Shown here: positions 22,155-53,562 of the stretch, one piece after another
How positions within the stretch are numbered: the stretch's first letter is position 1
Layout of the letters: the number at the start of each line of letters is the position of its first letter
Source of the DNA: Syntrophorhabdaceae bacterium
GTDB lineage: Bacteria > Desulfobacterota > Syntrophorhabdia > Syntrophorhabdales > Syntrophorhabdaceae
Direction: 5' to 3'
Length of the DNA stretch: 64,000 nt
Assembly (NCBI GenBank): GCA_036504895.1
Contig: DASXUJ010000075.1
Span: forward strand, 1 to 64,000
Translations under genes and position numbers: made by a program
Notes under the pieces: generated by a model
What the model was told of the DNA's origin: nothing
Database searches by the model: none
The model's input: only the letters and a program-made list of their open reading frames with translations

Positions 22155-22259
22155 ATTTGAGCGCGTGCGGGTTCGGGGGCAGTGATATCCCCGGAGGTGA
22201 TGCAGGATGGTCGGGCCGCCACCTGAAGATTTGAAAAGTCTTCAGGTGGCGGTTTTTTT
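22155..22259 (+). promoter_or_regulatory. leader with strong intrinsic terminator ahead of pentapeptide gene C
   Basis: A near-perfect stem (GCCGCCACCTGAAGA with TCTTCAGGTGGCGG, 22216-22252) followed by seven T residues is a textbook terminator. It lies 33 bases upstream of a start codon with no complete plus-strand gene before it. The preceding GGGG/CCCC hairpin and a GGAGGTG that could pair with the terminator arm suggest a short RNA or an attenuating leader. No known riboswitch consensus was recognised. Confidence 0.55.
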
Positions 22260-49046: not shown

Positions 49047-49893
49047 GGTTGAGGTTGAGGAAAGGCGGGAATCACTCGTAGTAATTCAAAATAAATATAG
49101 TCCAAGACAAAATGCGCAGGGTATGGGTAATTGGGAGCGGGCGGGCAGCCTGCGGGGTCAATTCCTTACGCTCCGGCTTGCTCCGGTGCTGACCCAAGAC
49201 GCTCTCAACTTCCTTTCGCTCAGCGCGCAGGTAGTTGGGAGCACAAGGTGAATTGATCGTCCGCGAACCGGCTGGTCTTGCGGGGCCCGATCCAACTATC
49301 CGGCGCTCATGCCGGCTACGCCGTCACCGGAAGTCTACGCTGCAGGGTCCCCAGCCCCTCCACAAAGTCGCTTCAGGAACCGACCCCGCAGACCGCCCGC
49401 AGTAGGTAGAGTATTTTTGGCCTATTCACTACAATTATGGAAGAAGTAGTCTTTTCGGAAGACACGGGAGTTTGTCACGGTGGTCAAGTACGTCCCCTCG
49501 GGGATTCCATAGCGCATCCGAAAAGTTTTTGAGTTGAATTTTCATCGGTTATGGAACAGAATAATTTTTATGCGCGAGGCTGTAGTATAGCGTTGCAGGA
49601 GGGTATAGAACGTCCGTATTCACAGCCATCGCCTTGCCGACTGCATGAAAGGTTACAAGTGGTATTTGTCGAGCAATTGCTGCATGCAGTATAACATCGG
49701 TATATTGACGATATACTGCAAATTCTACGGAATAACCTTCTCTCTGAAATAGATGGTATCTATGCGAATTTATGAATATTATCAGTCTATACTCGTTCAA
49801 CAATAATCATTGACATAGCTAACAGCAAATACTACTATTTCGGAAATTACTGCTTGCAGTATATTAATGTTAAGTTGCAGGGATGTAACCGCG
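49047..49893. other. non-coding left part of the accessory island, with GC-rich palindromes
   Basis: No convincing gene in 847 bases. It starts with a GGTTGA triplet repeat (49041-49065). From 49137 to 49400 it is GC-rich and full of palindromes, bounded by inverted copies of GCGGGCGG...CTGCGGGGTC. Inner boxes GGGTCA/TGACCC (49155 and 49188) and the CCACAAAGT-GCTTC text near 49360 resemble the attC at 51.57 kb, so these may be decayed cassette sites. The right half is AT-rich; a weak 84-codon minus-strand frame (49549-49803) lacks a ribosome site. Confidence 0.5.
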
Positions 49894-50724
49894 ATGGCAG
49901 CAAAACAATACTACTCAATTCGCACAGATAAGAATAAGAACGCTAAAGGCTTCGATCTCGAGGAACTTCGAGATTTGTTCCTTCGACTTTATAACCAGTT
50001 AGACAAGGACGGATATTTCGCTGAAGCCTTTGGCTTCTACTGTGTTGATGCCGATTTCATTCCTGGCAAAGTTGTGGACCCACAGTATGAAATACTGGTG
50101 AAGCTAAGGAAAAAAGACATATGGCCCATTGAAAGCTACTGCAAGGAATATACGGAAGATGATCTCTTTGACGTGATAGAGTTCCTATACGATCATATTT
50201 CCAAACCAATAGATGGAACATACCACAATTGGAACCAATGTGGGATGCATTGGGAAACGTTTGATCGTGATGAAGGCCAAAAATACTTCAGCGAAAAGAT
50301 AAATGAGCTGTTAAGTCTTTATAGAAATCCGTTCTCTTTCTCTGGAGAGGGTGAGGTACTGCATAAGGCAGAAAAAGGCCTCGAAAAGATCTTTGAAGCA
50401 GACATTCCAACTAACGACAAAAACGTCCAATCAAGAATGGACAGTGCAATCCTCAGATTCCGTAGGCATGGGTCTTCACTTGATGACAGGCGACAAGCCG
50501 TTAGGGATTTAGCGGACGTCTTTGAATATCTTCGGCCGAACTTAAAGACTTTATTATCTCAGAAAGATGAGGCCGATCTATTCAACATCGCCAATAATTT
50601 CGGCATTAGACACCACAATGAGCAACAGAAAACGGACTATGATACGGCAATTTGGCTGAGTTGGATGTTCTATTTTTACCTCTCAACGATTCATGTGGTT
50701 TTACGGAAACTTGAACTGGAGTGA
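49894..50724 (+). CDS. cassette-borne protein with HEPN-like C-terminus
   Basis: A 276-residue soluble protein (start ATG 49894; an ATG at 49867 is possible). Base composition is more AT-rich than in neighbouring core genes. The first 150 residues are an unknown alpha/beta region (FDLEELRDLFLRLYNQLDKD). The C-terminal 90 residues are helical with NNFGIRHHNEQQKTDYD, whose RxxN/H pattern recalls HEPN-type RNase or abortive-infection domains. It lies upstream of a DUF5677 gene and an attC site. A phage-defence or toxin role is a hypothesis. Confidence 0.65.
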   Translation: MAAKQYYSIRTDKNKNAKGFDLEELRDLFLRLYNQLDKDGYFAEAFGFYCVDADFIPGKVVDPQYEILVKLRKKDIWPIESYCKEYTEDDLFDVIEFLYDHISKPIDGTYHNWNQCGMHWETFDRDEGQKYFSEKINELLSLYRNPFSFSGEGEVLHKAEKGLEKIFEADIPTNDKNVQSRMDSAILRFRRHGSSLDDRRQAVRDLADVFEYLRPNLKTLLSQKDEADLFNIANNFGIRHHNEQQKTDYDTAIWLSWMFYFYLSTIHVVLRKLELE

Positions 50725-50761
50725 CTTAACCAGCCTCTTGGCCGCTGGTTATGCAAGAAAC

Positions 50762-51553
50762 ATGAACAACAAATTTACTAAATCCAACTTCGAGAAGGTC
50801 AGTCAAGAGGCATTGGATTTTCAACTTGCCACCCTCTACCCTGTTAAAGTGGATAAAGACCACCGGCGAAATACGCTTTTGTTTCTAAACCATGATAGGA
50901 ATTTCTCAACTTTCCTCACCGTCATGTATCTGGTCGAGCATGGAAGGGTAGCAGACATATATGCTTTATCTCGTGCCATGTTTGAAAGTATTGTGTCGAT
51001 GGGATTGCTTGTGACCTCTGCGATCCCGGACGATCTGAAAAGGTATGAAACCTATCAGTTCGTAGAGGCATACAAGTGTTATTCTCACCTCGAAAAGCTG
51101 GGGTTAGGGAATTTGAGCGGAATTCCCCCATCGGAAATAGCCTCTTTAAAACAAAACCGGGACCGATACCTCAAAACGTACGGGAAGAACGTCACCTCAT
51201 GGACAGGTAAGTCCCTCGAACAAAACGTCGGACTTCTGGATTCCAGGTACCCGCCCACCTGCAATGAACCACATTTCTATGAATACCTATATTGCCAAGC
51301 CTATCGCCAGGGTTCGCCTTCGGCCCATTCAAGCTTTGCTGGCTTGGCAAAGGGTGTTCGTGCGCGGCGCGTGGATATTCCTGGCTCTTTTGTCGCGAAT
51401 CAGTTTGAAACGAATGAGCCACACCTGATCTTTTCGTCATTTCATTCATTGCTCGTCTTCCTCAGTTCCGTCAGATTTATGGGTCAGGCTCTGGGGAAGC
51501 CGGAGGTTGAGGAACACTTTCATAAGTTGTCAAGGTATGTGATTGCTGAATAG
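50762..51553 (+). CDS. DUF5677-type protein, integron cassette gene
   Basis: A 263-residue helical protein from the ATG at 50762; an upstream GTG at 50693 would overlap the previous gene. Its YALSRAMFESIVSMGLL segment and helical context resemble the DUF5677 family, often found in integron cassettes and defence-rich islands. Biochemical function is unknown. The stop codon lies 12 bases before a well-formed attC site, the normal layout of a gene cassette. It probably travels with the preceding gene. Confidence 0.65.
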   Translation: MNNKFTKSNFEKVSQEALDFQLATLYPVKVDKDHRRNTLLFLNHDRNFSTFLTVMYLVEHGRVADIYALSRAMFESIVSMGLLVTSAIPDDLKRYETYQFVEAYKCYSHLEKLGLGNLSGIPPSEIASLKQNRDRYLKTYGKNVTSWTGKSLEQNVGLLDSRYPPTCNEPHFYEYLYCQAYRQGSPSAHSSFAGLAKGVRARRVDIPGSFVANQFETNEPHLIFSSFHSLLVFLSSVRFMGQALGKPEVEEHFHKLSRYVIAE

Positions 51554-51565
51554 AAGACACTCATT

Positions 51566-51630
51566 GCATAACTACCGGGTGCAGCTAACTCGGCCACAAA
51601 GTGGCTTCGTAGCTGACCCAGGCGTTAAGC
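51566..51630 (+). mobile_element. integron attC recombination site
   Basis: The outer boxes are GCATAAC (51566) and GTTAAGC (51624); the second fits the GTTRRRY consensus and they are near-complementary. Inside, GGGT/ACCC, CAGCTA/TAGCTG and GCCAC/GTGGC form one nested imperfect hairpin with AAA at the tip and unpaired bases on one arm. This is the architecture recognised, as folded single strand, by integron integrases. No integrase gene is in the window. Confidence 0.8.
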
Positions 51631-51646
51631 CTCAAGGAGATATTCC

Positions 51647-51913
51647 ATGACGGATTCAATCCAAACGATCATCCGGCGAGCAGTCAATCCTGCGGACGTA
51701 TGCGATGACGGTCGCTACACCGATCCACGGACCTATGGTGTCTATCAACTGCCGTATGCATCCGCATCAGCTTCTCGCTTTCATCAGGGGAATCATCCAG
51801 TCCGCCGGCAAGAGCTTGAAAGAGAATTCGGCGCGTGCACGCTCAACTTCCTATTTCGCTCCAAGGAAGACGCCAAGGCAGTCGCGTCCGCGCTTAATGG
51901 CCGCAAGGCCTAA
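51647..51913 (+). CDS. small integron-cassette protein of unknown function
   Basis: An 88-residue protein beginning 16 bases after the attC, with AAGGAG seven bases before its ATG. It contains YGVYQLPYASASASRFHQGNHPV and ends LNFLFRSKEDAKAVASALN. No family is recognised. Its stop codon lies inside GCCTAAC, an exact match to the RYYYAAC core box that starts an attC site, which is the usual cassette arrangement. Confidence 0.65.
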   Translation: MTDSIQTIIRRAVNPADVCDDGRYTDPRTYGVYQLPYASASASRFHQGNHPVRRQELEREFGACTLNFLFRSKEDAKAVASALNGRKA

Positions 51914-51930
51914 CGGGGCGGGGTCAGCCC
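51908..51930 (+). mobile_element. truncated second attC site
   Basis: GCCTAAC followed by GGGGCGGGGTCAGCC is the left half of an attC. No matching right half (GTTRRRY) follows, so the cassette array seems broken here. Confidence 0.5.
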
Positions 51931-53562
51931 TTGTAATTTGAATATTGGGCGATCGGGGACGAGAGGTAGAGTAGAGAACTGGCGCCCTTGCCTGGAGCCG
52001 CTTCTGCGCTTTTCGATGCACGCATCTACTGCGGGCTATAGCGGTCATAGGGGAACTCCTGCGGGACGTTCGTGAAATTGTGACATTTGATATTCCCCCG
52101 GCGCATTAAGCGTCGCATATAGAATCTATTCTGTTCCACTGCGGATAATATTCAAGAAGAACTTTTTCGAAAGACGGTTAAAATGCCACATGAAAGCGTG
52201 TCCGTCACTCGTGGACGCCATAGGCACAATTTCAGGAAGCTGTACGTAGCACCTTCTGTAAAATCTGCCCTTCCCTCGATCTCACTCCACGGGGTCGGGA
52301 GGGCTTTATCCTCGTAGCGCCTTGCGAGTACCGTCGGGACCCGCTCGGTGAGGAGAAACGCTCCGAAGGACAGCCACTCATGTCTGAGGAGGTACGACGA
52401 GTTGGGTGGCTGAGTGCCCGACGAATCGTCTTTTAGCGGGTGACGGGCGCAGCCGAAGCGGAGAGGATAGAGCCCTCCCGGCGCCGTGCCTCCCCGTCAG
52501 GAAGCCCTAACTTCTTTGCCTTCCTGGCCGCACGCCCCCCAGACTTAAGGGACATCCTACTTATCACTAACAAAGTATTTTATTTGCATAGTTATTTAGT
52601 TGTGGACGTCCCCATCGCCGTCCCCATATTGACATTCACCATTACGCGCATGGCATGAGCGCGCCCAGGGGTGGGGCAAGCGTCTAAAGAGACATTTTTT
52701 CAACTGATTTAAAGGACCTCGGGAGGCCCTTTTGTTAGTCTTCACGAGACGCGACGGGTCGGATGTTTCTTTGAATCTCATGGACGGCTTTCTCGGGGAG
52801 ATAAATCCCCAATGATTTCGCGAAAACGAACCGACACCCCCCTCCCCCCCCATGGTGACTCACAAGAGGCACAAAGGTGTCCGCTCCACGGGCTGCGGTG
52901 AAGGCTGCTCTTTGACAATTGAATATCGGGATCGAGGGGGACGTCGTTGCGGGGCGCCGATAGGGACATCCTTCAGCATTTCAATTGGGAGCGGTGGGAC
53001 GTCCATAACTGAGGGCAAGACAGAGGGGTGGGCTGCGGCCATCAGATGTCTTGGCCATAACTTATCGAAGCAATTGACACCGGCACCGGACATTTTCCTG
53101 AATCAATCATTGACGCCTCGACTTACTTTTGGTTATTCTCGATTTCTCAGTCAGCAGGAGTCCAGAGCAACTCTGACGACAGAAAAGAAGTGAGGTACGG
53201 TCAATAGAATAAAAACGAGGCAGTGCCGCGGCGACGAATTAATGTGATACCTTTGGAGCCGCCTGCAGTGGAGGGCGGAATTGGCCGGAAGGTCCATATG
53301 GGGTGCCAGGCGAGCAAGGAGGACCGCAGGCGTATTGAATATACGTCGAAGGGCACCGGCGGAGCATGGCGCCGCAGATGGGCCTTTTGTGTCAATTCCA
53401 CCCTCCCGGCTAGAGCGAGGGTCTGGGACGTTGTTGCTCCGTTGCATAACTGAAACATGATGATTCGCCATCACGAGCCTCGCGAAGATACCACAGTAGC
53501 GACTTTTACAGGAGAGCGCTGAGTTCCTCCCTTTAGTTGTCTTCTAAAACGTGGCTATGCCC
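51914..53562. other. non-coding core of the accessory island with dispersed repeats
   Basis: About 1.65 kb without a convincing gene. It contains the structured RNA at 52295 and four related repeat copies: 51940-51961, 52598-52632 (inverted), 52921-52943 and 52981-53010, sharing GGGGACG or GGGACGTCC boxes next to AATAT/CAATT. The copies at 52598 and 52981 face each other and match over about 30 bases. Such boxes resemble the ends of REP-type or miniature elements. Confidence 0.5.
52295..52482 (+). ncRNA. orphan structured RNA, HEARO/omega-RNA-like
   Basis: An 18-20 bp closing helix pairs 52296-52313 (CGGGAGGGCTTTATCCTC) with 52463-52480, with one G-T. Inside are GCGCC/GGCGC (52317, 52446), CGTCGGG/CCCGACG (52332, 52417), CAGCCAC/GTGGCTG (52371, 52406) and GGAG/CTCC (52352, 52361). 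ACCCGCT (52339) pairs with AGCGGGT (52435) across the CCCGACG arm, making a pseudoknot. Size, pseudoknot and setting recall HEARO RNAs, the guide RNAs of IscB/IsrB nucleases. No such nuclease gene is present here. Confidence 0.6.

Follow-up and report, generated by a model that had tools for sequence, protein, structure and literature searches.

On the forward strand of the window, by which we mean the whole stretch of 64,000 nucleotides that was analysed, a module of about 200 bp resembling an integron attI site (49671–49868) is followed by three genes in the same direction, CDS1 (49894–50724, 276 aa), CDS2 (50762–51553, 263 aa) and CDS3 (51647–51913, 88 aa). CDS1 and CDS2 are separated by a contracted, attC-like hairpin of 31 nt (50724–50754), CDS2 and CDS3 by a full attC site of 65 nt (51566–51630), and CDS3 ends in a possible half attC (51908–51930). 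The full attC is the feature that an earlier note on this DNA had singled out, describing its box layout, its hairpin with unpaired bases and its place between two genes that point the same way; both sequence and coordinates proved correct, with a gap of 12 bases from the end of CDS2 to the site and of 16 bases from the site to the start of CDS3.

The boxes of this site are R″ GCATAAC (51566–51572), which departs from RYYYAAC at position 3 alone, and R′ GTTAAGC (51624–51630), which fits GTTRRRY. Between them lies an imperfect hairpin whose 5′ arm has one unpaired base (GGGTGCAGCTA against GGGTCAGCTA), in the same place as the extra base of the aadA1 attC; the DNA fold z-scores of the two strands are −2.9 and −3.4, and when the 64-kb window was scanned for paired boxes that enclose a symmetric fold, this site was the sole candidate. 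A covariance model (R1) was trained on ten attC sites from relatives within the class, at loci where an intI gene or a remnant of one is present, with the window left out. It scores the site at 60.1 bits (E = 2e-14), its only match in the 92-kb contig. As a control, the same model finds the aadA1 attC of R100, which lies outside the training set, at 35.5 bits (E = 4e-7) and as its only match in 50 kb of plasmid. A search with an attC model was the test by which the earlier note had proposed that its reading could fail, and the model does match the site. Of the sequences found, the one most similar to the site opens an array in a relative (G023:C53); this first attC is about 89% identical over 57 nt, and the array adjoins an intI remnant. 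On sequence grounds, 51566–51630 is a genuine attC that closes a captured gene. Intergenic hairpins are common and the site stands alone, as would suit a terminator or a chance palindrome between two unrelated genes, but the model score and the homology to the attC of an array beside an intI remnant contradict such a reading and no terminator was called at the site, so that its probability is negligible. An Rfam scan likewise matched nothing at 51566–51630.

The R″ box of a gene cassette complements the bases with which that cassette begins, a relation that also holds in the G023:C53 array. Along the present locus, GTTAAGT (from 49869) pairs with ACTTAAC (from 50724) in 7/7 positions, GTTATGC (from 50748) with GCATAAC (from 51566) in 7/7, and GTTAAGC (from 51624) with GCCTAAC (from 51908) in 6/7. 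This complementarity bears out the presence of gene cassettes, as the earlier note had claimed, and sets their limits: cassette 1 spans 49870–50748, cassette 2 spans 50749–51624 and cassette 3 begins at 51625. The gene of cassette 1, CDS1, is a candidate phage-defence protein by its match to the PADLOC candidate defence family PDC-S32 (E = 3e-12). Its homologues lie on plasmids of Methylobacterium (59% identity), Leptospira (45%) and Streptomyces, and its start at 49894 is supported by the Methylobacterium protein, which aligns from residue 1; a PDB search with CDS1 gave nothing credible. CDS2, in cassette 2, belongs to DUF5677 (Pfam PF18928, E = 8e-15 when scored with a longer start), and relatives of it were found neither in the 45 relative genomes nor among plasmids. 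CDS3, the open frame of cassette 3, matched no known family above cut-off in Pfam, PADLOC or further family searches. Because CDS2 occurs in 0 of the 45 relatives, and CDS1 is absent from 44 of them and represented in the remaining one by a 26% identical homologue only, the cassette genes are, to judge from this distribution, foreign.

The sites that close the first and third cassettes are reduced. In the 31-nt hairpin after CDS1 (ACTTAAC-CAGC-CTCTTGGCC-GCTG-GTTATGC), the R″ and R′ boxes, complementary to both cassette ends, are joined directly to the CAGC and GCTG arms, and both spacers and most of the attC centre are missing; the stem has eight pairs and a z-score of −2.5. This exact pattern was found nowhere else in the 46 genomes. 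At the far end of the array, the stop codon of CDS3 falls within the R″ box GCCTAAC, which together with an L″-like stretch forms the possible half attC, its right half missing; the attC model does not match it.

Upstream of the cassettes, the module at 49671–49868 runs from the side of the lost integrase to the first cassette. Over 203 bp it shares 73% identity with a stretch in a relative (G023:C45:1713–1908) that sits between a frame-broken intI (locus L023) and a first cassette; because this homologue occupies the attI position, we identify the module as attI, and it is through the homologue that its place between intI and the first cassette can be recognized, the window's own intI side being empty. 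A copy in another relative (G024:C27) is 89% identical to that of the window, and further copies are found in G024, G028, G029, G016, G017 and others. A sequence model (R2) made from fourteen other copies, with the window left out, scores the window copy at 65.5 bits (E = 1e-18) and finds this single copy in the genome. Aligned from the right end, the copies share TTGACA, 17 to 18 bases, TACTAA or a variant of it (TACTAT in the window) and then AAATTACTGCWTGCAGTATATTAAT(T); past GTT they diverge, each entering a different gene, so that in nearly all of them G^TT marks the limit of the homology. In the window, the final shared base adjoins the junction G^TTAAGT (49869–49875), the exact complement of the R″ box at 50724–50730. 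The Pc-like promoter within the module (49810–49838, TTGACA-17-TACTAT) was located by pattern scan; the pattern is not above chance by itself but is nearly invariant in an alignment of 14 other copies. A 19-nt direct repeat lies near both ends of the module (49675–49693 and 49845–49863). Since R2 finds no match at the other intI loci of the class (G031, G041, G029:C31, G028:C46 and G045), those integrons seem, by this measure, to use another attI.

The integrase itself is missing. That no integrase lies nearby, as the earlier note held, extends to the whole genome (4.35 Mb), in which no protein reaches the curated cut-off of TIGR02249, the model for the IntI-specific domain that marks a complete integron; the genome is a draft in 138 contigs, and an intI could lie in a gap. 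The intI search that the note had proposed returned four partial matches, which come from two proteins of the XerC/XerD type. One further attC was found in the genome, on another contig (C69:7662–7726), among the 150 of 1,021 candidates that received a score, so that weaker sites could have gone unnoticed. It reaches 41 bits, has a degenerate R″ box and immediately follows a cupin-like gene of 101 aa, with no attI found next to it.

What the sequence shows directly is the attC, a homology to attI that breaks off at the G^TT cut point, and cassette junctions that are complementary from one end of the array to the other. We read the locus, with a probability of roughly 0.87, as a short integron remnant from which intI is gone, made up of an attI with its promoter and three cassettes, with a full attC after the second. 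From left to right the array would comprise attI and promoter, cassette 1 with CDS1, cassette 2 with CDS2 and the full attC, and cassette 3 with CDS3 and a truncated attC. In the past, an IntI would have folded the attC strand of cassettes in circular form and linked them in succession at attI, the last to arrive standing nearest to it; the attI promoter would transcribe the cassette genes, and the array would now be fixed, the cassettes being immobile in the absence of IntI unless an integrase acts in trans. Against this reading weigh the presence of only one full attC, a hairpin in cassette 1 without precedent in the 46 genomes and a half-site that the model does not see. The order of genes at the locus varies among relatives, whereas a fixed order would have spoken against the cassettes proposed in the earlier note: in a congener (G032), the glycosyltransferase and the transporter are about 0.6 kb apart, compared to 5.2 kb in the window, and the locus has no insert. 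An exact empty site was not obtained from G032, whose intergenic sequence does not align with the flanks in the window.

The earlier note had gone on to suggest a cluster of attC sites lacking an integrase (CALIN). Its attC, its cassettes and its missing integrase stand; the CALIN label does not. IntegronFinder 2.0 reports CALINs from two attC sites upward (PMC9024848), and the 92-kb contig has one full attC, the next lying on another contig, in a count that leaves aside the contracted and half sites of cassettes 1 and 3, which were not scored by the attC model. The earlier reading also overlooked the attI and promoter 1.7 kb upstream of the attC, which make the locus an integron remnant and not merely a place with loose attC sites.

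The glycosyltransferase adjacent to the cassette region has its nearest named match, at 68% amino-acid identity, in a Syntrophorhabdaceae MAG, which makes Syntrophorhabdia the probable class. Across the class, attC sites occur in 33 of the 46 genomes, with up to 50 in one, and intI at E 1e-40 in only nine. The attI model has matches in 15 genomes, the weaker of which are uncertain, with 8 matches in G024 and up to 10 in G029. We examined 39 attI-like places, the window included, in counts that are limited by contig ends in the draft genomes. An attC on the same strand follows within 2 kb downstream in 22 of the 39 places, compared to none on the opposite strand and two upstream. A full-length intI lies beside a single one of them (L023, frame-broken), and fragments lie beside two more, namely, an N-terminal piece of 32 aa at L102 and a C-terminal piece at L103. 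Besides the divergent arrangement at G023:C45, intI and cassettes run in the same direction at two loci, L018 (G031:C1) and L024 (G023:C53).

How the window lost its intI can be explained in two main ways. A complete integron may have stood here, its intI having been deleted from the left while attI and cassettes stayed behind; we give such in-place decay about an even chance. Other attI copies are found at stages of such loss, from the full-length but broken gene of L023 to the fragments of L102 and L103, pseudogenes of intI are frequent among integrons at large (PMC2426708), and in the window dispersed repeats occupy the left flank (49129–49399). Decay fits less well with the lack of any intI trace to the left of the window attI (tblastn, E 0.01) and with the homology of several attI copies, which stops at the same left point. 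This sharp end, at about −200, appears in three comparisons, in which the sequences are similar over 195 to 205 bp and then not at all (window/L094, 89%; L096/L098, 88%; L023/L097–L100, 84%). It would be expected if the attI-promoter module and its cassettes had arrived without intI, as a unit spreading between loci with the help of an IntI in trans or of another recombinase, which we consider somewhat less probable than not. The rarity of intI at the 39 places, the direct repeats near both module ends and an attI-like copy within an array (L108) also favor arrival. In this last case (L108:4366–7261, on G004:C292), a cassette array encloses the attI-like promoter core, with the preceding attC 225 bp away and the following one 591 bp away. 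Arguing against arrival, five copies (L094, L095, L097, L099 and L100) share 60 to 190 bp further left, the left end of the module coincides with the start of intI in L023, and no mobilizing enzyme is known. Between the decay of many integrons and the spread of a module without intI, we lean slightly to decay. The more general idea, that a 200-bp attI-promoter module spreads in this class (probably Syntrophorhabdia) without an integrase of its own, providing many scattered landing and expression sites for cassettes that an integrase delivers in trans, with the window as one such site, is tentative and on balance rather unlikely. Very improbable, finally, is that no integron was ever here and that a foreign IntI put a free cassette into an ordinary genomic site (attG), as is documented for IntI1 (PMC12901181; PMC12444791) and as would suit the other attC of this genome, with no attI found beside it; for the window locus we reject it, the stretch before the first cassette being a conserved attI module and not random genome sequence.

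The closest known parallels are the chromosomal integrons of Xanthomonas, in which the integrase has decayed and the arrays are frozen (PMC12444791). As in the window, cassettes stand in a row beside the platform and the integrase is broken or lost; but whereas Xanthomonas has one fixed platform at ilvD, some of the relatives studied here carry the attI-promoter module at many places in a single genome, and in the window no remnant of intI is left. CALINs, which are abundant (PMC9024848; PMC9668308), and single attC sites resemble the window in having attC without an integrase nearby (IntegronFinder 2.0, PMC9024848), but the window differs from a CALIN in having one full attC only and, in addition, an attI with promoter. 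In the delta-attI cassettes of class 1 and 2 integrons, attI is likewise found in arrays away from its integrase (PMC12901181); there, however, a piece of attI replaces the attC downstream of a gene, whereas in the window the gene stands between the module and an attC downstream. The open-access literature yielded no paper on Syntrophorhabdaceae integrons and none on multicopy attI without integrase. The window itself is an ordinary integron remnant, and what is new is the set of scattered attI-promoter modules that lack intI.

These modules matter because attI outside class 1 is poorly described and lies outside what the standard tool looks for: IntegronFinder does not detect it there (PMC9024848), so that loci like the window would be filed as CALINs or dropped. 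The type of attI reported here was found from sequence alone, and its copies in different genomes hardly ever have an integrase beside them. Should the modules function in trans, integrons would not have to be limited to a single platform per genome, and many loci classed as CALINs or lone attC sites would be expressed cassettes driven by attI. A concrete promoter-plus-attI sequence is now available for testing the expression of cassettes in these bacteria.

Two minor observations concern the surroundings. Dispersed intergenic repeats of 200 to 300 bp lie around the cassette region (49129–49399, 52227–52496, 52625–52930 and 53132–53421), with many copies on other contigs and at least 51 matches listed for the region as a whole; one stretch (52288–52488) has inverted arms of 26 nt, and these repeats, which fill the flanks, may be MITE-like. 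Elsewhere in the window, an nhaA-I RNA motif is found at 22169–22223, with 44.5 bits.
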